In this document: positions 1 through 37,716 of the stretch, piece by piece
Position numbering within the stretch: the stretch's first letter is position 1
Layout of the letters: each line of letters starts with the position of its first letter
Assembly: GCA_944392755.1 (NCBI GenBank)
Contig: CALXXT010000080.1
Coordinates: 1-55,930, forward strand
Origin: an uncultured Sutterella sp.
GTDB lineage: Bacteria; Pseudomonadota; Gammaproteobacteria; Burkholderiales; Burkholderiaceae_F
DNA length: 55,930 nucleotides
Direction: 5' to 3'
Position numbers and translations under genes: made by a program
Notes under the pieces: model-generated
Database searches by the model: none
What the model saw: the letters and a program-made list of their open reading frames with translations, nothing else
What the model was told of the DNA's origin: nothing

Positions 1-16
1 CGTTGTTGACTCCCAT
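1..16 (-). CDS. start of the next ccm-operon gene (partial, probably ccmG)
   Basis: An ATG at 16-14 on the minus strand overlaps the ccmF stop by one base (TAATG) and opens a frame reading MGVNN to the window edge. Such overlap is the usual sign of translational coupling in this operon. In ccm operons the gene after ccmF is usually ccmG (dsbE), a thioredoxin-like thiol reductase that prepares apocytochrome cysteines. Only five codons are visible, so the identity rests on gene order alone. Confidence 0.4.
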
Positions 17-1977
17 TAGGCGGCCGACGCCGTCTTTGAGGACTTGCGGCGGTAGCGGCGGTCCGAAGCGGCGATGAGGCCGCCCAACGCCATGAAGATC
101 GTTCCGAACCAGATCCAGGTGACGAAAGGCTTCGAGTAGGCGCGCACGACCCAGCCGCCGTCCGAACTCGGCACGCCGAGGCTCACGTACACGTCGCCCG
201 AGACGGAGTGACGGATCGCCGCTTCGGTCATCGGCATCGAGTTCGAGCTGAAGTACTTGCGCTTCTCCGGATGCAGGCGGTCGATCTCGCGGCCGTCCTT
301 CGAAAGCGTGAAGTCGCCCTGGTCGGCCATGTAGTTCGGGCCGCGGACGCTCTTGACGCCGTTGAAGGTGAACGTGTAGCCCGCCACCGTCACCGTGTCG
401 CCTTCGAACATGCGCACGTCGCGCTCGGATTCGTAGCCCTTGACGAGCGCGACGCCGATGATGAAGACGGCCACGCCCGCATGCGCGAGGGACATGCCCC
501 AGAAGGCTCGGGGCTGACGCGCAAGACGACCCAGGAAGCCCATGCCTTCGGGGGCGTTGCGCAGATTGCCGCGCACGTCCTCAACGATCGAAAGCATCAC
601 GAAGACGGCAAGCGTGCAGCCCGCAAAGCACCAGTGGCCCCATTCGCCCATGAGGAGCGGAATCGCCGCGCCGAGGACGAGCGCGAGCGCGAAGCACCAG
701 GCCAGACGCTTGGCGAGCGCCTTCGGATCGGCTTCCTTCCAGCGCGCCAAGGGGCCAACCCCCATGAGGAACACCATCGGAAGCATGAGCGGGCCGAAGA
801 CCGCGTCGAAGTAAGGAGGACCGACCGAGATCTTGCCCGCGCCCAGAGCGTCGAGGAAGAGCGGATAAAGCGTGCCGAGCAGCACCGCGCCCATCGCGAC
901 GACGAGGAGCACGTTGTTGACGAGAAGCATCGACTCGCGGGAAATCATCGAGAAGTTGCCTCCGAGCCCCACGGTCGGCGCGCGCCACGCGAAGAGCAGG
1001 AACGAGAGCCCGATCACGAGGACGAGGAAGGCGAGAATGAAGATGCCGCGCTCCGGATCGGTCGCAAAGGCATGCACCGACGTGAGCACGCCCGAGCGCA
1101 CGAGGAAGGTCCCGAGGAGCGAGAGCGAGAACGTGATGATCGCCAGAAGCACCGTCCAGATGCGGAAGCACCCGCGCTTTTCCGTCACGGCGAGCGAGTG
1201 AATGAGGGCCGTTCCGGTGAGCCACGGCATGAAGGAGGAGTTCTCCACCGGGTCCCAGAACCACCAGCCGCCCCAGCCGAGCTCGTAGTAGCTCCAGTAG
1301 GAGCCGAGCGAAATGCCGAGGGTGAGGAGAATCCACGCGGCCGTCGTCCAGGGGCGCATCCAGCGGGCCCACGCCGCGTCAAGGCGGCCCGAGATGAGCG
1401 CCGCGATCGCGAAGGCGAAGGGAACCGCGAAGCCCACGTAGCCGAGATAGAGCAAGGGCGGATGGAAAACCATCCCCGGGTCCTGCAGCAGCGGATTGAG
1501 GTCCGCCCCCTCGGCGGGCGCCGGGAAGAGGCGCAGGAAGGGATTCGACGTGAAGAGCATGAACGCGACGAAGCCCATGTTGACGAGCCCGAGCACGCCC
1601 GTGACGCGCGCGACCATGTCCGTGGGCAGACGGCGCGCGGCGAAGGCGACCGCCGCACCCCACCAGCCGAGCGTCACCGACCAAAAGAGTATCGAGCCTT
1701 CGTGCGAGCCCCAGGTCGCCGCAACCTTGTAGTACCAAGGCAGCATCGAGTTGGAGTTGTTCGCCACGTTGAGGACGGTGAAGTCCGACTGATAGAAGCA
1801 GTAGGCGAGGCAGACGAAGGCGATCGTGCCGAAGAGCGCGTTTGCAGCGGCCGCAGGGCGCGCCGTCGCCATCATGGCGCCGTTTGAACGCGCCGCGCCG
1901 ACGAGCGGAATCACGCCCTGAATGATGCTGAGCGCGAGGCACAGAATCAATGCGAAGTGTCCGATCTCTGGAATCAC
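16..1977 (-). CDS. ccmF: cytochrome c haem lyase subunit CcmF
   Basis: A 653-residue polytopic inner-membrane protein that attaches haem from holo-CcmE to CXXCH motifs of apocytochromes c in the periplasm. The WWD haem-handling motif is visible as WGGWWFWDPVENSS at about residues 235-248, followed by conserved PW. It is flanked by many hydrophobic segments and a conserved upstream stretch, WGSHEGSILFW, at about 89-99. Length matches the family. It is the last complete gene of a minus-strand ccmABCDEF operon. The 148 bases between ccmE and ccmF hold no gene. Confidence 0.97.
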   Translation of the reverse strand: MIPEIGHFALILCLALSIIQGVIPLVGAARSNGAMMATARPAAAANALFGTIAFVCLAYCFYQSDFTVLNVANNSNSMLPWYYKVAATWGSHEGSILFWSVTLGWWGAAVAFAARRLPTDMVARVTGVLGLVNMGFVAFMLFTSNPFLRLFPAPAEGADLNPLLQDPGMVFHPPLLYLGYVGFAVPFAFAIAALISGRLDAAWARWMRPWTTAAWILLTLGISLGSYWSYYELGWGGWWFWDPVENSSFMPWLTGTALIHSLAVTEKRGCFRIWTVLLAIITFSLSLLGTFLVRSGVLTSVHAFATDPERGIFILAFLVLVIGLSFLLFAWRAPTVGLGGNFSMISRESMLLVNNVLLVVAMGAVLLGTLYPLFLDALGAGKISVGPPYFDAVFGPLMLPMVFLMGVGPLARWKEADPKALAKRLAWCFALALVLGAAIPLLMGEWGHWCFAGCTLAVFVMLSIVEDVRGNLRNAPEGMGFLGRLARQPRAFWGMSLAHAGVAVFIIGVALVKGYESERDVRMFEGDTVTVAGYTFTFNGVKSVRGPNYMADQGDFTLSKDGREIDRLHPEKRKYFSSNSMPMTEAAIRHSVSGDVYVSLGVPSSDGGWVVRAYSKPFVTWIWFGTIFMALGGLIAASDRRYRRKSSKTASAA

Positions 1978-2605: not shown

Positions 2606-2791
2606 TTATCTCTCCAGGGTTGATTGAGCCGCGCGCGCCTCGCGCAGAATCCGAGCGTAGATTCGGCGGCGGCGGCCGGCGATGGAAAAGAGTTCGTAGA
2701 CGACGCCGGCGGCAAACGCGAAGTAGGAGCACCAGACGTAGTAGCCGTGGCCGTTCATGTGAATGAAGTCAGAGAGCGAAGTCCAGTTCAC
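2606..2791 (-). CDS. ccmD: haem exporter small subunit CcmD
   Basis: A 61-residue single-span membrane protein with a short N-terminus, one hydrophobic segment (YYVWCSYFAFAAGVVYELF, about 17-35) and a basic cytoplasmic tail (GRRRRIYARILRE). CcmD releases holo-CcmE from the CcmABC complex. The ATG overlaps the ccmC stop by four bases (ATGA). Size, topology and position between ccmC and ccmE identify it. Confidence 0.92.
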   Translation of the reverse strand: MNWTSLSDFIHMNGHGYYVWCSYFAFAAGVVYELFSIAGRRRRIYARILREARAAQSTLER

Positions 2792-3507
2792 AGCTTTCCC
2801 TCCAGAGCGGCGCGGCGGGCCCAGAGCGAGCGGCGCTCGCGCTCAAGGATGATGGCGCGCACGCGCGCGAGCACGATGCCCGCGCCGTAAAGCGTCCCGG
2901 CGGCGAGCATGATGAAGATCGTGTAGAGCATGATGTCGGCGATCGAGGAGCCGCGCGACGTGATCGAGGCGCCCTGGTGGAGCGTGTTCCACCAGCGCAC
3001 CGAGAAGTAGATGATCGGCACGTTCACGGCGCCCACGATCGAGATCACGCTCGCGGCGCGGTCGGCGCGGCGCTTGTCGTCGATCGCCGCATGGAGCGCG
3101 ATGAAGCCGAGGTAGAGGAAGAAGAGAATGAGCATCGACGTGAGGCGGGCGTCCCACACCCAGTAGGTGCCCCAGGTGGGCCGACCCCAGAAGGCGCCGG
3201 AAAAGAGCGCGATGAAGCTCATGAGCGCGCCCGTCGGAGCCATCGCCTGCGCGAGGATGAAGGCGATCGTGCTCGAGCGCGCAAGACCCCAGGCGCTCGC
3301 CACCGCCATCAGCACGTAGAGCGCCATGCCGAGCCAGGCCGATGGAATGTGAATGAAGATGATGCGGTAGGAATTGCCCTGCCGAGCTTCGATCGGGCAC
3401 TCGAAGAAGCCGAGGTAGAAGCCCACGACGAAAAGCGCGAGCGCCGCGCCGAGCAGCCATGGGATCAGTCGTCCGGCCTTGCGGTAGAAGGCTTCGAGCG
3501 GTGTCAT
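2788..3507 (-). CDS. ccmC: haem exporter subunit CcmC
   Basis: A 239-residue, six-span inner-membrane protein that delivers haem to CcmE. The WWD-type motif is seen in FWGRPTWGTYWVWDARLTS. The start is placed at ATG 3507 (MTPLEAFYRKAG) because AAGGAG lies 11 bases upstream; a longer frame to 3600 would add 31 residues unlike the family and overlap ccmB. Coupled to ccmD by a four-base overlap. Confidence 0.95.
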   Translation of the reverse strand: MTPLEAFYRKAGRLIPWLLGAALALFVVGFYLGFFECPIEARQGNSYRIIFIHIPSAWLGMALYVLMAVASAWGLARSSTIAFILAQAMAPTGALMSFIALFSGAFWGRPTWGTYWVWDARLTSMLILFFLYLGFIALHAAIDDKRRADRAASVISIVGAVNVPIIYFSVRWWNTLHQGASITSRGSSIADIMLYTIFIMLAAGTLYGAGIVLARVRAIILERERRSLWARRAALEGKL

Positions 3508-3553
3508 GTTGATGGATTCTCCTTCTTGATGAATCGATCGTGCGGTCCGCAGC

Positions 3554-4222
3554 CTACTGCTCCGCAATGCGCAGCGCCGCGGAGACCGCCATGGGCGCAA
3601 GCGCGAGCGAAAGCAGCGAGAGCGAACTCACGATGAGAAAGTGGGACGAGGCCGAGAGGCCCATCGCGACCGCCTGAGAGGCGCCCGCGCCGAAAATGAG
3701 AACCGGGATGTAGAGCGGAAGCACGAGCAGCGACGTGAGCACGCCGCCCGCCCGCAGCCCGAGCGTCAGGGCGGCGCCGACGGCGCCGACGAGCGAAAGC
3801 ACCGGCGTGCCGATCAGAAGGCTCAGCACCATGACGAGGGTCACGTCGAGCTCAAGGTCGAACATCACGCCGAAAATCGTGGCGAAGACCGTCATCGGAA
3901 TCCCCGTGACGAGCCAGTGCGCCGCGACCTTCGCGATCACGATCACGGGAAGCGGCTCGGCCGCGACGAGCATCTGCTCGAGCGTGCCGTCGTCGTGATC
4001 CGCCGCGAACATGCGCGGCAGCGAAAGCAGCGCCGCCAGAAGCGCCGCCACCCAGACGACGCCCGGCGCGATGCTGCGCAGAATGTTCGTTTCGGCGCCG
4101 ACGCCGAGCGGAACGAGCGTCACGACGACGGCGAAGAAGAAGATCACCTGAGCGAGGTCGGACTTGCGGCGCATGGAAAGCGTCAGGTCCCGACGAAGCA
4201 CGGCCATGAAGAGATCGAACAT
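3554..4222 (-). CDS. ccmB: haem exporter permease CcmB
   Basis: A 222-residue integral membrane component of the CcmAB transporter. Visible family features are the N-terminal basic stretch (VLRRDLTLSMRRKSD), six hydrophobic segments, and the cytoplasmic acidic loop FAADHDDGTLEQML near residues 73-86. It starts 12 bases after the ccmA stop. With CcmA it forms the ATP-driven machine needed to release holo-CcmE. Confidence 0.95.
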   Translation of the reverse strand: MFDLFMAVLRRDLTLSMRRKSDLAQVIFFFAVVVTLVPLGVGAETNILRSIAPGVVWVAALLAALLSLPRMFAADHDDGTLEQMLVAAEPLPVIVIAKVAAHWLVTGIPMTVFATIFGVMFDLELDVTLVMVLSLLIGTPVLSLVGAVGAALTLGLRAGGVLTSLLVLPLYIPVLIFGAGASQAVAMGLSASSHFLIVSSLSLLSLALAPMAVSAALRIAEQ

Positions 4223-4234
4223 CGCGCCTTCCTC

Positions 4235-4951
4235 CTAGCTGCCGAGCTCGTTTTCGACGGCTTCGGCCGCCGCCTGATCGAGCGCCCGCTCGACCGCGGT
4301 GCGCTTCACGGGCGCCCAGCGCTCGGGCTCGATCACCATGAGCCGCGCCCGTTCGACGGGCACCTCCTGGTGCGTGACGAGCATCACGACGCCGCCCTCG
4401 GCGACATGCGCGCCGATGAGGTCGGCGAGCCGCGCCACGGCGCGCACGTCGAGCGCCGTGAAGGGCTCGTCGAGCACCCAGAGGGGAACCGAGCGCGAAA
4501 GCCACAGGCGCGCGAGCGCGACGCGCCGGCGCTGTCCCTGCGAGAGCTGTCCGGCAGGCGCCTCGACGTAGTCGGAAAGCCCCACGGCGGCGAGCGCGTC
4601 GAGCGCGGCCGCTTCCGTCGCTCCCTTGAGGGAGGCGATGCGCGCGTTGATGAGCACGTTTTCAATGACCGAAAGGTCGTCCTTCACGCCGTTGCGGTGG
4701 CCGATGTAGCAGAGCTCGCGCCAGAAATCCTGAGCGGCCTTCAGAATCGGCACGCCGCGCCAGAGGATTTCCCCTTCCGCAGGCCGCATGAGCCCCGTCA
4801 TGAGCCGCAGGAGCGTCGTCTTCCCGGCGCCGTTGCTGCCGGCGATGCGCACGAGCGTGCCCGGCTCGACCGCAAAGGACAGGCCCTCGAAGAGCGTGCG
4901 CTCGCCGCGCTCGCAGGTGAGGCCTCGGACTTCAAGAATGGGCTCGGACAT
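4235..4951 (-). CDS. ccmA: haem exporter ATP-binding protein CcmA
   Basis: A 238-residue ABC ATPase with Walker A GSNGAGKTT at 38-46, signature LSQGQ at 136-140 and Walker B ending WVLDEP at 158-163. It is the first gene of the operon and powers CcmAB during holo-CcmE release. The 265 bases upstream (4952-5216) separate it from the divergent lipoprotein gene and should hold both promoters; no strong -35/-10 pair could be fixed for ccmA. Confidence 0.95.
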   Translation of the reverse strand: MSEPILEVRGLTCERGERTLFEGLSFAVEPGTLVRIAGSNGAGKTTLLRLMTGLMRPAEGEILWRGVPILKAAQDFWRELCYIGHRNGVKDDLSVIENVLINARIASLKGATEAAALDALAAVGLSDYVEAPAGQLSQGQRRRVALARLWLSRSVPLWVLDEPFTALDVRAVARLADLIGAHVAEGGVVMLVTHQEVPVERARLMVIEPERWAPVKRTAVERALDQAAAEAVENELGS

Positions 4952-5216
4952 AGGGGAAGGTGAGAAATGCGCTGAGGGTTCGCCCGCCTCGGGCGTCGGG
5001 CCGAAAAGACCCGAAAACGTTCGGCTCGAAGTTTATGCAGGCTAAATTAACGTTTGCTTACCGAAGGAATTGAGGCGGAAGCTTAGAACTTGTTGTTTTC
5101 TATGGGTTTTCATCGATCGACGGCGGCTTTTTCCAAGCGTCTTCGCGCGCGCCTGTGTACACTTGGGCGTCGCGCGCACACGGCGCGCCGCCGCATGACC
5201 CAATTGACTCTTCAAC

Positions 5217-33098: not shown

Positions 33099-33569
33099 AT
33101 GAACGACGAGACGCTTGCCGCGGGCAGCCTTGCCCCCGACTTCACGCTTCCCAACGACTCCGGCGAGGAGACGACGCTCTCCGGCCTGCGCGGCCAGCGC
33201 GTGATTCTCTACTTTTATCCGAAGGATTCGACCTCGGGCTGCACGGCCGAGGCCGTCGCCTTCCGCGACCGCCTCGAAGACTTCAAGCGCTTGGGATACG
33301 TCGTGCTCGGCGTGTCCCGCGACAGCGTGAAGAGCCACTGCACCTTCCGCGACCGCCAGTCCCTCAACTTCCCGCTCCTCTCCGACAAGGAGGAAACGGT
33401 CTGCGGGCTCTACGGCGTCATCAAGGAAAAGATGATGTGCGGGCGCAAATGCCGCGGCATCGAGCGGTCGACCTTCGTGATCGACGAGGAAGGCCGCATC
33501 ACGCACGCGCTTCGAGGCGTGAAGGCGAAGACCCACGTCGAGGAGCTCTACGCGCTTCTCAGCGCCTGA
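33099..33569 (+). CDS. bcp: thiol peroxidase of the BCP/PrxQ family
   Basis: A 156-residue cytoplasmic peroxiredoxin reducing hydrogen and organic peroxides. The peroxidatic cysteine is Cys48 in YPKDSTSGCTAEA; other cysteines are in KSHCTF and VCGLYG, so the resolving partner is not certain. Its 3' end overlaps the convergent CcmI-like gene by 11 bases. AAGGAG precedes the ATG. Confidence 0.93.
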   Translation: MNDETLAAGSLAPDFTLPNDSGEETTLSGLRGQRVILYFYPKDSTSGCTAEAVAFRDRLEDFKRLGYVVLGVSRDSVKSHCTFRDRQSLNFPLLSDKEETVCGLYGVIKEKMMCGRKCRGIERSTFVIDEEGRITHALRGVKAKTHVEELYALLSA

Positions 33570-34437
33570 GCGGCGGGCGCTCCGCGGCGATTCGCGCGTC
33601 GAGCTCGCGCAGCGCCGCCTCAAAGCGCCGCCGCTGCGGCGTGTCGGGCGGCGTGAGCCGCACGATCGCCGCCAGCTGCCGGCGCGCAAGCTTCCAATCG
33701 CGGGTCGCCAGGGCGAGCATCGCCGAGATCTCGAGCCCCTTTCCGCTCTCGGGACGCAGCGCGAGCCCGCGGAGAACGCGCTTCTTGGCATCTTCGAAGG
33801 CGCCCTCCTCGTTCGCGGTGAGCGCCGCCGCGCCGTATTCGAAAAGCACGTCGGGGTCCTCGGCCACCTTCGGCGAGGCGGCGATCGCGCGCCGGTACGC
33901 CTCGACCGCTCCGGAAAAGTCGTCGGCTTCGACGCGCCGGTGCGCGAGGAGCACCCATGCGCGCGCATCCTTCGGGTGACGCTCAAGGTAGCGCGCGACG
34001 GCTTCGGCGGGCGCCCGGCCCTCCAGCACTTTCTGCGCTTCGCTCAATTCGATGAGCTCGGGCGAACCCACGAGCGCATAGACCGCCGCGGAGCCGCCGA
34101 GCACGACGGCGAGCACGACGGGAATCCAGGCGCGCGCGGAGCCGCCGCCCTCGGGTTCGGGCCCCGCCGCACGCGTCTCTTCGAGCGCGCGCCGCCGAAG
34201 ATCGGCGAGAAGCGCCTGCGCCTCGGCCGAGCCGATTCCCCCCGAGCGCAGGGCCTCTTCGATCTCGCGGCGCTCGGCGCGAAGCGCCTCGAGAAGCGCC
34301 TCGCGGGCGGCGTCCCGCTCGAGCCGGCGCGCCCCCCTTCGGGCGCGCCAGAGCGGCGGGATCACGATGAGGGCGGCCGCCGCGGCCATCGCCGCTTCAA
34401 CCGCGTAGAGCGCGAGTGCGTGCATCGCCGTCGTCAT
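33559..34437 (-). CDS. CcmI/NrfG-like cytochrome c maturation protein
   Basis: A 292-residue membrane protein with two N-terminal spans separated by a basic, helical loop (WRARRGARRLERDAAREALL; then an A/V-rich span near 106-124) and a periplasmic TPR domain (AWVLLAHRRVEADDFSGAVEAYRRA, DVLFEYGAAAL). This is the CcmI layout (the C-terminal half of E. coli CcmH), which presents apocytochromes to the haem lyase. It sits behind the octahaem reductase rather than in the ccm operon, so it may serve the CXXCK haem as NrfG does. The ATG is hard against a strong hairpin with no ribosome site; Met5 is an alternative start. Confidence 0.78.
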   Translation of the reverse strand: MTTAMHALALYAVEAAMAAAAALIVIPPLWRARRGARRLERDAAREALLEALRAERREIEEALRSGGIGSAEAQALLADLRRRALEETRAAGPEPEGGGSARAWIPVVLAVVLGGSAAVYALVGSPELIELSEAQKVLEGRAPAEAVARYLERHPKDARAWVLLAHRRVEADDFSGAVEAYRRAIAASPKVAEDPDVLFEYGAAALTANEEGAFEDAKKRVLRGLALRPESGKGLEISAMLALATRDWKLARRQLAAIVRLTPPDTPQRRRFEAALRELDARIAAERPPLRR

Positions 34438-34439
34438 TC

Positions 34440-34466
34440 GGGCGGCCGGGGGAATCCCGGCCGCCC
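34440..34466 (-). repeat. intercistronic hairpin between the octahaem reductase and the CcmI-like gene
   Basis: GGGCGGCCGGG and CCCGGCCGCCC, perfect 11-bp arms with a 5-base loop, ending two bases before the downstream ATG. No T-run follows. It may stabilise the upstream mRNA or lower translation of the downstream gene. Confidence 0.75.
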
Positions 34467-34498
34467 GAAGTCAGGTGAGGGTTGAAGGATCAGGGCGA

Positions 34499-36109
34499 TC
34501 AGCGGGCCGCGTTCTTTTCAGCGCAGGCCTTCTGCAGGAGCGCCGCCGCATCCTGGGCGGCCTTCGCGGCCTTGGCGAGGCTGCGCACCGCCATGTCGGG
34601 ATTGTGGAACCAGGCGCCGTTCACCGCGGTCCAATACTCCCAATTGACGTGCGCGGAAGCGTGCAGCCTGCGGGCCTCGTCGAGCGTCTTCGAGTCGACG
34701 CCGGCGGCAATCGCGTTCTCAAACGCGTTGAACATGTCGTTCATGCGCGATTCCGTCTCGCGGACCTTGCCGTCGTAGTAGCCGTGCATCGCGTCGATCG
34801 CCGCGTTCATCTGCTCGGCCGTCTTGTCCTTGTGGCAGGTGAGGCACGTTTCCTGCATGTAGTGGCGCGGAGACGTCGACCAGTGAAGCGTGTAGGTCTT
34901 GCCGGTCTTTTCGTCCTTCACCTTCGGCATGTGGCACGTCTGGCAGGTCGCCCCCGCCTTGTCGTGCTTCGAGCCGAAGAAGGTCTCGGCGTCCGGGTGC
35001 TGCATCTTGATGAGGAGCGCGCCCGTCATGCTGTGCTTGAAGTCGCGGTAGCCGATCTTCTCGTAGTACGCCTCGATCTGGTCGGCGTTGACGAAGGGGA
35101 AATGGTTCGTCAGGCGGCTGTCCATGCCGATCGGCTTGCCCGTCTTCGCGTCGACGCCCGGATTGCAGATGTACTCGACGTGGCACTGCGCGCACATGAG
35201 GTTCGCGTCGGGCTTCTCGAGATAGGCGATCTTGCGGTCGAACCCGCGCACGCCGACGTCCCTGACGTCGAGCTTCGTCTTGCGGGCGGCCAGATCGTAG
35301 GCCGAAACGTCGTTCTTGCGCGTGAGCGCGTCGATCAGGCCGTCGCGGATGACGCGCGGCTTGGCGTTGTGCGGATCATGGCAGAAGTTGCAGTTGAGCG
35401 CGTGATTGACGGCGCGCACGGAGTCGACCGCGTTCGACGCGCGGCTGAACTTCGCCCCTTCGGCCTTGTCGCCCATGTAGGCCCAGTCGAGCATCAGATC
35501 GGCCGACTTGCACGACCAGCAGACGCCGTTGCCGGCCGCCGCGGTGCCCGGCTTGAAGGGCTTGTGCTCGTTCGATTCGGGGTGCGTGTCCTTCAGGACG
35601 TCCCAAACCTTGTAGTGCTTTCCGCCGGGGAGCGTCGTGTAGAGCCACCCGTCCTTCGGCTCGAATCGGCCGCCGAACGCACGATCGACGAGGAACTGAT
35701 CGATCGCCATCCAGGTGTGGGCGCGCGGCAGGTCGTGCTCCTTCGTGAAGCCGTGGCCGCCCAGCGCGCGGTCGAAGAACGGATCGGGCGCCGGTCCCGA
35801 CGCCGCCTTCTTCGACTGGCGGGCGGGCCGATCGCTCGTCTTGTAGAGCGAGGCGTACTGGTTCGCGTGGCACATGCCGCACTTGGCGGGATCCATGTTG
35901 ACGGTCGGACGCGTCTTCGCGCTCTTCAGATGTTCGTCGAGGCCGGTGTGGCAGGTCGTGCAGGCCACGCCCTTATGGGCCGAGCCGGCATGTTCGGACG
36001 CAATGGGATTGTGGCAGGAGGCGCAGCGGGAAAGATCGGCCGCTTCGGCGCCGAAGGAAGCGAAAAGGCCGGCGACGGCGGCCGCGGTGATCCAGGCACG
36101 GGAACGCAT
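34499..36109 (-). CDS. octahaem cytochrome c nitrite reductase (ammonia-forming)
   Basis: A 536-residue exported multihaem protein with a signal peptide (cleaved near AEAAD, residue 23). Eight haem sites are visible: CASCH 29, CTTCH 50, CGMCH 77, CWSCK 197, CNFCH 240, CAQCH 306, CQTCH 389, CLTCH 422. The fourth, with lysine, is the catalytic haem as in octahaem nitrite reductases; pentahaem NrfA has it first. Active-site candidates are Arg129 (PRAHTWM), Tyr313 and His371 (KMQHPD). Tyr313-x-Cys315 matches the Tyr-Cys pair of the Thioalkalivibrio enzyme. It reduces nitrite to ammonia in the periplasm. ATG 36109 has GGAGA upstream. Confidence 0.92.
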   Translation of the reverse strand: MRSRAWITAAAVAGLFASFGAEAADLSRCASCHNPIASEHAGSAHKGVACTTCHTGLDEHLKSAKTRPTVNMDPAKCGMCHANQYASLYKTSDRPARQSKKAASGPAPDPFFDRALGGHGFTKEHDLPRAHTWMAIDQFLVDRAFGGRFEPKDGWLYTTLPGGKHYKVWDVLKDTHPESNEHKPFKPGTAAAGNGVCWSCKSADLMLDWAYMGDKAEGAKFSRASNAVDSVRAVNHALNCNFCHDPHNAKPRVIRDGLIDALTRKNDVSAYDLAARKTKLDVRDVGVRGFDRKIAYLEKPDANLMCAQCHVEYICNPGVDAKTGKPIGMDSRLTNHFPFVNADQIEAYYEKIGYRDFKHSMTGALLIKMQHPDAETFFGSKHDKAGATCQTCHMPKVKDEKTGKTYTLHWSTSPRHYMQETCLTCHKDKTAEQMNAAIDAMHGYYDGKVRETESRMNDMFNAFENAIAAGVDSKTLDEARRLHASAHVNWEYWTAVNGAWFHNPDMAVRSLAKAAKAAQDAAALLQKACAEKNAAR

Positions 36110-36213
36110 GATGGGTCTCCAAAGCTTACGGGGTACTGAAATCTGGGCGGGTGCGCCGAAAGCCGCCCTTGGGGAAACGGCGGAACTTCCTGCAGGCAAC
36201 TCGCCTACGGGAA

Positions 36214-36241
36214 TTCTTAAGGATTTCTGAATGATTGTCCA
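36214..36241 (-). promoter_or_regulatory. promoter of the octahaem reductase gene
   Basis: Minus-strand TGGACA (36241-36236), a 16-base spacer, then TAAGAA (36219-36214), about 105 bases before the ATG. No clear FNR (TTGAT-N4-ATCAA) site was found. Confidence 0.45.
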
Positions 36242-36293
36242 GAGGAAAGTTTCCTCCCGGCGGAGGACCCGCGGCGCGCCGGAAGGATTTCCG

Positions 36294-37124
36294 TCAGCCG
36301 AGCGCCACGTCGAGCGCCATCATGAGCGCAAAGCCGAAAATGAAGGCGAGCGTGCCGGCATCGGAGTGTTCCGAAAGATGCGCCGACGGAATGAGCTCCT
36401 CGACGACGACGTAGAGCATCGCGCCCGCCGCGAAGGCGAGCATGAAGGGCATGAGGGGCGCGAAGAAGGGCAGCCCCAAAACGACGACGACGCCGCAGAC
36501 GGGCTCCACGACGCCTGAAAAGGCGCCGAAGAGAAAGGCCTTCATGCGGGAATATCCCTGCTCGGCCATGGGAATGGAGACGGCCGCGCCCTCGGGAATG
36601 TTCTGGATGCCGATCCCGATGGCAAGCGCAAGCGCCGCCGAGAGCGAAGGCGCGCTGTCGGCAAGCGCCGCCATCCCCGAAGTGAGGCCGACCGAACCGC
36701 CTTCGGGAAGGTTGTGAAGCGTGATGGCGAGAAAGAGAAGCTGCGCGCGCCGCAGCTTCGTCTTCGGCCCTTCCGGAGCGGAGGCGCCCGGGTGAAGGTG
36801 GGGCATCGCCATGTCGAGGAACTTGAGGAAGAAGGCTCCCGCGAGAAAGCCGCCCACGGCGGCCGCCACGGGAGAGATGCCCGCCGACTCGGCGGCCTCC
36901 ATCCCCGGAATGAGGAGGCTCCAGACCGCGGCCGCAACCATGATCCCGGCCGCGAATCCGAGGGAGAGCGTTTCGGCGAGCCGAGGGCCGGCATCGTCCG
37001 GAGCGCGCCGCGGCTTCATGAAGAAGACGGCCGCCGAGCCGATCGTGGTGCAGAGAAAAGTGAGGCCCGTGGCGAGAAGCGTGTTGAGGAGGGCCGCCCC
37101 CATGTCCATGGCTTGCAGGTCCAA
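36294..37124 (-). CDS. ZIP-family metal transporter
   Basis: A 276-residue, eight-span transporter of the ZIP family, GufA-like. Metal-site motifs HNLPEG (137-142) and QNIPEG (174-179) lie in adjacent spans, with VEPVCG in the next. A short His stretch (MPHLHPG, 107-113) is in the loop before span four. Probably imports zinc or another divalent cation. A TACGAT hexamer on the minus strand near 37170 is a possible -10. Confidence 0.9.
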   Translation of the reverse strand: MDLQAMDMGAALLNTLLATGLTFLCTTIGSAAVFFMKPRRAPDDAGPRLAETLSLGFAAGIMVAAAVWSLLIPGMEAAESAGISPVAAAVGGFLAGAFFLKFLDMAMPHLHPGASAPEGPKTKLRRAQLLFLAITLHNLPEGGSVGLTSGMAALADSAPSLSAALALAIGIGIQNIPEGAAVSIPMAEQGYSRMKAFLFGAFSGVVEPVCGVVVVLGLPFFAPLMPFMLAFAAGAMLYVVVEELIPSAHLSEHSDAGTLAFIFGFALMMALDVALG

Positions 37125-37195
37125 TTTCGAAATTCCGAAAAGCGTTCAGTCGTCGATCCGCCGATCGTAGCGCAGGTTCGAGGTTCGGCGTTCCG

Positions 37196-37235
37196 CGGGG
37201 AAAAAATAAAGCCGGCCTTCGGGGGAAAGCCGGCT
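37196..37235 (-). terminator. terminator after the rhodanese gene
   Basis: AGCCGGC (37210-37216) pairs with GCCGGCT (37229-37235) around a 12-base loop. On the minus strand the stem is followed by TTTATTTTTTCCC. It lies 55 bases after the rhodanese stop. Confidence 0.85.
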
Positions 37236-37290
37236 CCCGCCCGCCGCGGCCGGCTCATCGGGCTCGGCCGCGAGGAGAATCAAGGCGCGC

Positions 37291-37716
37291 TCAGTCCTTC
37301 ACGAGACCGAAGGGCCACTGCGACGTGCCGTACATGTTGTAGACGTGCTTGTAGCCGGATTCGACGAGAATCCGAGAGGCCTTTTCGGCGCGCACGCCCG
37401 ACTTGCACTGCACGAGCACCTTCTGGTTCTTGTCGGGAACCGCTTCGAGCGTCACGCCGGGCTTCAGGGTCGAGAGCGGCACGTTCACCGCGCCCTTCAC
37501 ATGGCCTTCGGCGTATTCATCCGCTTCGCGCACGTCGATGAGAACGACCTTTTCCTCCTCCATCATCTTCTTGCCGACTTCAGGCGTCACCTTGGCGTAG
37601 GCCGGATTGACGTAGGTGAGGGGCTGAGCAGGCTGAGGATTGACGGGTTCCTGAGCCTGAGCCGCGCCGAAGGCAAGCATGCCGGCGCACAGCGCGGCAA
37701 GAACGTTCATCTTCAT
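37291..37716 (-). CDS. periplasmic single-domain rhodanese
   Basis: A 141-residue exported protein with a signal peptide (MKMNVLAALCAGMLAFGAAQAQ) and one rhodanese domain (VVLIDVREADEYAEGHVKGAVNVP). The active loop is QCKSGVRA with Cys104. Such proteins move sulfane sulfur or act in periplasmic redox. ATG 37716 has GGAGG upstream; the longer frame to 37848 would hide the signal peptide. Confidence 0.9.
   Translation of the reverse strand: MKMNVLAALCAGMLAFGAAQAQEPVNPQPAQPLTYVNPAYAKVTPEVGKKMMEEEKVVLIDVREADEYAEGHVKGAVNVPLSTLKPGVTLEAVPDKNQKVLVQCKSGVRAEKASRILVESGYKHVYNMYGTSQWPFGLVKD

Follow-up and report, generated by a model that had tools for sequence, protein, structure and literature searches.

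Does a gut betaproteobacterium carry an octahaem nitrite reductase (ONR), an enzyme best studied in soda-lake Thioalkalivibrio, and what would it do there? The question is raised by one gene in a 55,930-nucleotide stretch of DNA from an uncultured Sutterella (the window). An earlier note, made from the sequence alone, had read the gene as an ONR from a probable gut betaproteobacterium, and this identity is borne out by sequence search and by a predicted-fold match, as is the host, which is a Sutterella. In our judgement, the product is very likely a soluble periplasmic ONR that reduces nitrite to ammonium, is served by a CcmI-like chaperone, and completes nitrate/nitrite reduction.

The onr open reading frame lies on the minus strand, with its first ATG at 36109 and a stop codon that ends at 34499 (Table 1). 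By eye, the product has a signal peptide and a mature start near residue 24. Motif reading of the translated frame confirmed the eight haem motifs that had been claimed, with the lysine-type CXXCK in fourth place: CASCH, CTTCH, CGMCH, CWSCK, CNFCH, CAQCH, CQTCH and CLTCH. This is the order of three CXXCH, one CXXCK and four CXXCH described for ONRs (PMC10716430, PMC5433712), and we expect eight haems to be attached to the mature protein. A scan of positions 33500-37500 for sigma-70-like promoters gave one match, against a mean of 0.2 in shuffled sequences, and none of the five FNR-box matches in the window (up to two mismatches; 7.0 expected in the window) falls in the onr upstream region. The gap between onr and ccmI holds, as seen by eye, a perfect, G+C-rich 12-bp inverted repeat with a 5-nt loop (34439-34467); no T run follows it.

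Table 1. Features of the onr locus and of the distant paralogues; positions refer to the window unless a locus is named.
Feature	Position	Strand	Basis or remark
onr, octahaem nitrite reductase	34499..36109	-	536 aa; open reading frame, sequence, fold
GGAG, likely ribosome-binding site, 7 nt before onr ATG	36117..36120	-	read by eye
Sigma-70-like promoter match TGGACA-17-AAGAAT, upstream of onr	36213..36241	-	weak evidence
First haem motif CASCH, residues 29-33	36011..36025	-	motif reading
Arg143 (TvNiR Arg131), active site	35681..35683	-	alignment; invariant in 80 rows (best 80 of 368)
Fourth haem motif CWSCK, residues 197-201, lysine-ligated catalytic haem; Lys201 (TvNiR Lys188)	35507..35521	-	motif and alignment
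Sixth haem motif CAQCH, residues 306-310	35180..35194	-	motif reading
Tyr313-Ile-Cys315 (TvNiR Tyr303/Cys305), presumed covalent Tyr-Cys link	35165..35173	-	alignment
His371 (TvNiR His361), between haem motifs 6 and 7, active site	34997..34999	-	alignment
CcmI/NrfG-like gene, 292 aa, TPR domain, 61 nt downstream of onr	33559..34437	-	TIGR03142, 56.4 bits (cut-off 29.3)
ZIP gene beside onr	36294-37124
CcmF haem lyase gene, probably general ccm operon, window contig	16..1977	-	TIGR00353, 740.4 bits
CcmC gene, cluster shared with CcmF	2788..3600	-	TIGR01191, 219.5 bits
Distant ONR-like paralogue places	L157:6180-7943; L158:6297-8036; L159:6700-8391; L160:6931-8727; L166:6668-8464; L167		Sutterellaceae genomes

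The structure prediction and ONR alignment that the earlier note had proposed as checks both agree with the ONR class. With phmmer against the PDB sequences, the product matched 8rv0, the ONR of Trichlorobacter ammonificans, at E 2.6e-136 and 2ot4, the ONR of Thioalkalivibrio nitratireducens (TvNiR), at E 2.9e-129, values that exclude a chance match. The former is the closest solved sequence (45.4% identity) and has an identical Tyr-x-Cys; its host belongs to a phylum other than that of the window's host. Global alignment with TvNiR gave 43.1% identity over 503 aligned residues, which lies above the 40% to TvNiR used to delimit ONRs in the family definition of PMC5433712. Pentahaem NrfA appeared in the PDB search at 2.3e-29 or weaker, with only the second half aligned. 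The Pfam scan returned Cytochrom_C552 (PF02335) at 199.7 bits for residues 163-533, and the NCBIfam NrfA models stayed far below their cut-offs (145.6 bits vs 595; 121.4 vs 692.5). The NrfA enzymes of E. coli, Wolinella and others share with the window protein a lysine haem motif and homology to ONR residues ~195-532, but NrfA is described as a five-haem protein with CXXCK first (PMC12285233); with eight haems and CXXCK fourth, a pentahaem NrfA identity was rejected.

The fold points the same way. An AlphaFold2 model, computed from an alignment of 80 rows (the window protein and 79 loci), reached a mean pLDDT of 90.9 and a pTM of 0.89, and the first eight Foldseek matches in the PDB were all ONR chains (TMq 0.86-0.90, rmsd 1.8-2.5). 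Further down the 50 matches listed came NrfA (TMq 0.44-0.60), OcwA (0.35-0.37) and MccA (0.20-0.22). With TMq up to 0.90 and an rmsd of 1.8, the predicted model belongs to the ONR fold. TvNiR (2OT4 and others; TMq 0.88-0.90) resembles the window enzyme in its eight haems, the fourth position of CXXCK and the retained active-site Arg, Lys, Tyr, Gln, His and Cys; apart from sequence identity, the two differ in that the window enzyme belongs to a gut Sutterella and has a ccmI neighbour.

Residues R131, K188, E302, Y303, C305, Q360 and H361 of TvNiR (2ot4) correspond in the global alignment to R143, K201, E312, Y313, C315, Q370 and H371 of the window protein, which upholds the earlier placement of Tyr313-Ile-Cys315, right after CAQCH, opposite the Tyr-Cys pair of TvNiR. 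We take R143, K201, E312, Y313, C315, Q370 and H371 to be the catalytic positions. The active-site Tyr, Arg and Cys described for ONRs (PMC5433712) are thus present as Y313, R143 and C315, and the His between motifs 6 and 7 (PMC10716430) as H371. Other marks of an ONR are a hexameric state, calcium and nitrite-to-ammonium activity; Glu312, beside Tyr313, is likewise conserved with respect to TvNiR. The Tyr-Cys link is stated in PMC12285233, and, by alignment, Tyr313 and Cys315 probably form a thioether bond in the window protein too. In the catalytic route that we envisage, electrons would enter via the bis-histidine haems and pass to the lysine-ligated fourth haem, where nitrite would be reduced by six electrons to ammonium in a pocket that includes Arg143, Tyr313 and His371.

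To see how general these features are, we turn to 79 named loci, taken from the best 80 of 368 confirmed matches. In the 80-row alignment, Tyr313 is invariant and Cys315 nearly so, with Tyr-x-Cys kept in 78 of the 79 loci. In 76 of the 79, the CXXC[HK] motifs number exactly eight and the fourth carries the K; the remaining three have seven strict motifs because one motif departs in each, through an undetermined residue in L039 (observed in its twin L151), a CX3CH in L078 and a CX4CH in L088. A separate set of 33 loci gave Tyr-x-Cys in 33/33 and eight motifs with K fourth in 32/33, L011 showing seven. The Tyr-x-Cys pair is therefore a family trait and not a peculiarity of the window gene.

The enzyme class had been introduced in the earlier note as best known from sulfur-oxidising gammaproteobacteria; the find in a gut bacterium stands, but a restriction to sulfur oxidisers does not, given that onr is reported from 14 bacterial phyla and one archaeal phylum (PMC10716430). 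A full-length ONR (at least 51% identity) was found in 37 of the 67 family genomes and in 12 of the 12 genus genomes, and is therefore an ordinary family trait. A short ONR fragment at 57% in genome G035 stands outside the 37, and any match at E 0.001 is found in 42/67, NrfA and a distant paralogue counted in. A sample of 300 genomes from the order gave matches in 12; 7 of these belong to the family of the window's genome, and three others (G317, G152, G349) match across most of the protein, with 41-50% identity. Within the best 80 of 368 matches, Sutterella massiliensis (85%) ranks as the nearest named relative, Sutterella accounts for each of the first eight named loci, and onr is also present in Parasutterella, Duodenibacillus, Mesosutterella and Turicimonas (named loci). 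A plasmid origin was considered and rejected: 18 plasmid records matched, all below 60% identity; the annotation of the 10 listed names the NrfA kind in 9 and is missing in 1.

A quick tree of 91 rows places the window ONR as sister to that of S. massiliensis (SH-aLRT 98), inside a 12-row group of Sutterella, Mesosutterella and an uncultured Sutterellaceae (99). Its root is unsure, since the long-branched outgroup is made up of two NrfA-like proteins of Sutterella (L163 and L164, the only rows obtained from seven NrfA loci tried), and the two solved ONRs are flagged as long branches that meet. A branch with support of 100 divides 65 rows, including both solved ONRs and the paralogues, from 23 Sutterellaceae rows, L046 and the NrfA outgroup; L046, a Burkholderiaceae MAG from roe deer colon, groups with the Sutterellaceae side. 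The Sutterellaceae label changes 3 times on this tree, which is compatible with one origin. We read onr as a product of descent within the family rather than of recent transfer, the tree not being a strict test of this. The distant paralogues fall inside the non-Sutterellaceae ONR rows on a branch 4.5 long, a placement that we do not trust.

The genomic company of ONR suggests a pathway. NapA scored over its cut-off in 35 of the 67 family genomes, namely in 31/37 of those with a full-length ONR vs 4/30 of the others, although these counts are not independent, since ONR and NapA presence is clumped by descent. Three of the four NapA genomes without a full-length ONR have NrfA (G042, G045, G046) and the fourth has the ONR fragment. 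NapA did not reach the cut-off in the ONR genomes G010, G031, G032, G040 and G043 and in the window's own; the last negative is weak, since the genome is incomplete and smaller than those of its congeners (1.74 Mb in 96 contigs, 89.8% complete, against 2.2-3.2 Mb). NapA lies within the fetched flank of 16/79 loci (best 80 of 368), the gene order being onr, ccmI, napD-like, napA in L152, L155 and L156 (names partly by eye), and in L151 the nap genes are divergent and beside onr. ONR would then complete the reduction to ammonium, either of nitrate via NapA, which is present in the relatives, or of nitrite from host and diet. NrfA-type pentahaem proteins, assigned by score (>300 bits), occur in G036, G042, G045 and G046. 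Two Sutterella also carry a pentahaem NrfA-like protein with CFSCK first (L163:4471-5784 in G061; L164:156-1418 in G057), and in the other ten genus genomes ONR is the only PF02335 protein found.

Other readings of this function have to be weighed. TvNiR also reduces sulfite and hydroxylamine (PMC5433712, PMC8840924), and the physiological substrate of the window enzyme could therefore differ. That the protein itself is an octahaem sulfite reductase or hydroxylamine oxidoreductase of the MccA, HAO or OTR kind is extremely improbable: it does have eight haems, and ONRs are able to reduce sulfite (PMC5433712), but the CXXCK motif and the NrfA-like second half are against it, MccA matches in Foldseek at E 7.5e-3 or weaker, HAO is not among the 50 Foldseek matches listed, neither is among the 22 PDB sequences at E ≤ 0.001, and the Pfam scan gave no Multi-haem_cyto and no PF13447 match. 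On these PDB sequence, Pfam and fold searches, an HAO or MccA identity was rejected. An ONR by descent could, however, serve mainly to detoxify nitrite, hydroxylamine, NO or peroxide, instead of energy-conserving nitrite respiration, with electrons coming non-specifically from small periplasmic cytochromes. We lean against this account while taking it seriously; it overlaps with the respiratory one, so that their likelihoods do not add up to one. No dedicated quinol-oxidising partner lies beside onr, seven Cytochrom_c3_2 family matches in the window's own genome could include donors, and nitrite detoxification has been proposed for a termite-gut ONR (PMC12887300, on a termite-gut Deferribacterota). 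On the other hand, NapA co-occurrence and the shared clusters in relatives suggest a full nitrate respiration pathway, and one enzyme could do both. A search beside onr found no NrfH-type donor; the sole PF03264 match of the window's genome, at 82.5 bits to the NapC/NirT model (cut-off 310.6), is divergent and lies on another contig.

The preferred reading, a nitrite-to-ammonium reductase with its own chaperone, also has to account for the neighbours. Both genes that had been seen beside onr are there, but only the CcmI-like gene is a conserved partner in Sutterellaceae. The ZIP gene was rejected as a functional partner: it clusters with no other gene called in the window or the 79 loci. In those loci, the window's rhodanese and transporter genes likewise lack counterparts among the calls. 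Besides exceeding the cut-off of TIGR03142, the CcmI-like protein matches TPR_CcmH_CycH (44.1 bits, cut-off 42). In this and in its TPR domain it resembles the NrfG/CcmI apocytochrome chaperones, but it has no match to the NrfG equivalog model NF007692 at E 0.001 and is tied to an octahaem, not a pentahaem, enzyme. In loci from the best 80 of 368 matches, a CcmI-like frame follows onr on the same strand within 1.3 kb in 47/76, and within 2.5 kb in 19/19 Sutterellaceae loci with at least 1.5 kb of sequence (in L036, L047 and L052 only beyond 1.3 kb). The stricter count gives 14/29 in Betaproteobacteria; outside Sutterellaceae, the 2.5-kb count is stricter than the 1.3-kb one because of open-frame placement. 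The link is absent in 15/15 scored loci outside Pseudomonadota (Nitrospirota, Myxococcota, Thermodesulfobacteriota and unplaced or deltaproteobacterial kin), so not every ONR depends on this link. In 12/71 loci, a CcmI is also found immediately upstream of onr. Flanking genes were called with a GC-bias script, not a gene finder, and the CcmI profile was built from these calls; L046, L059, L072 and L080 (4/79) received no onr call and are absent from the flank listing but present in the motif and CcmI counts. The names NapD, NapG, CcmG, CcsA and ResB were given by eye or from a PF01578 match.

We expect that the CcmI-like protein acts as a probable apo-ONR chaperone, which would hand its substrate on to the CcmFH haem lyase, much as NrfA is served by NrfG/CcmI; the long helices at the end of the predicted ONR model make such a role reasonable. 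Shewanella seems to get by with CcmF and CcmI (PMC12285233). It is unlikely that the neighbour is a mere leftover of a ccm operon, unconnected with ONR in particular. In several betaproteobacteria, Turicimonas and Parasutterella, onr does follow a run of ccm genes (by eye), so that the linkage could be passive, and the absence outside Pseudomonadota also fits a leftover; yet contig C43 of the window's genome (L144) encodes another CcmI, 27.6% identical to the onr-linked one, and the second copy stays by onr throughout the scored Sutterellaceae loci. Contig C67 (L143) of the window's genome carries a second CcmF (3151-5178) and a CcmH-like gene (about 2573-2944) beside a PPIase-like gene (by eye). 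With its CcmH, this second CcmF (61.9% identity to that encoded at the window start) is a candidate for a specific CXXCK lyase; in G016 and G062, however, the second CcmF belongs to a nos-like cluster (by eye), and a second copy does not track ONR strictly. The nos-like cluster resembles one predicted as a thiosulfate reductase in PMC4257093.

The window protein, then, is a typical ONR; its interest lies in a common gut family, a conserved tie to a second ccmI, and natural variants. The enzyme type is known, but its spread in Sutterellaceae seems to have been previously unrecognised, and we found no description of an octahaem enzyme in Sutterella, Sutterellaceae or Parasutterella in the open-licence literature. 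In soil metagenomes, onr counts are given as nearly negligible (PMC10716430). For Sutterella wadsworthensis 3_1_45B and Burkholderiales bacterium 1_1_47, a 2014 survey (PMC4257093) predicted an extracellular NrfA that lacks a membrane partner. The ONR of genome G062 is identical to that of S. wadsworthensis 2_1_59BFAA, and no other PF02335 protein was found in G062; judging from this other strain, the surveyed 'NrfA' of 3_1_45B is therefore probably an ONR. In PMC7765368, a nitrite reductase, its type apparently not named, is listed for Mesosutterella multiformis and S. wadsworthensis, whereas Parasutterella excrementihominis, S. megalosphaeroides and S. parvirubra are given none; S. wadsworthensis is listed without a nitrate reductase. 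Our results disagree with these entries, since an ONR is present in P. excrementihominis YIT 11859 (L053) and a NapA in G062 (1162.7 bits). The same source reports that P. excrementihominis and S. megalosphaeroides cells swell in 1 mM nitrite, and this, like the missing nitrite reductase, fits poorly with an active ONR in these species.

There is about an even chance that the following wider picture holds: gut Sutterellaceae respire nitrate, with ammonium as the product, by Nap and ONR, the latter being as a rule their sole cytochrome c nitrite reductase and matured by a dedicated CcmI chaperone; the orphan 'extracellular NrfA' of S. wadsworthensis is an ONR; and the family has spun off a Cys-less tandem ONR and a paralogue that has the lysine haem without the Tyr and Cys. 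Sutterellaceae onr would be a candidate route for nitrite removal and ammonium formation in the gut, and surveys that use E. coli NrfA as their multihaem reference (such as PMC12998184) could miss or mislabel gut ONR.

These variants make the ONR family a source of natural sequences for testing the role of the Tyr-Cys pair. One Sutterella has a tandem onr duplication (L036, 9922-11508, plus strand; apparently G060:C19). Its second copy shares 86% identity with the first but has Tyr-Ala-Gly where the neighbour copy has Tyr-Val-Cys, and is by its sequence a natural Cys-less ONR. Non-standard haem motifs also occur in true ONRs, at the first site in L078 and at the third in L088. The distant ONR-like paralogue (31-35% identity) is found at 9 places in 8/67 family genomes. 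All six of those read have CXXCK fourth and a CX4CH in place of the eighth CXXCH; the four aligned keep the equivalents of Arg143, Lys201 and His371 and have lost Tyr313 and Cys315. No CX4CH paralogue was found at E ≤ 1e-60 in 369 class genomes, in a search run without a positive control. ResB/CcsA-like genes (by eye) adjoin the paralogue in L157, L158, L160 and L166, a naming backed by PF01578 matches in G061 and G051. The best PDB match of the L160 paralogue is an ONR (E 4.7e-45), and the substrate of these proteins is perhaps sulfite or hydroxylamine.
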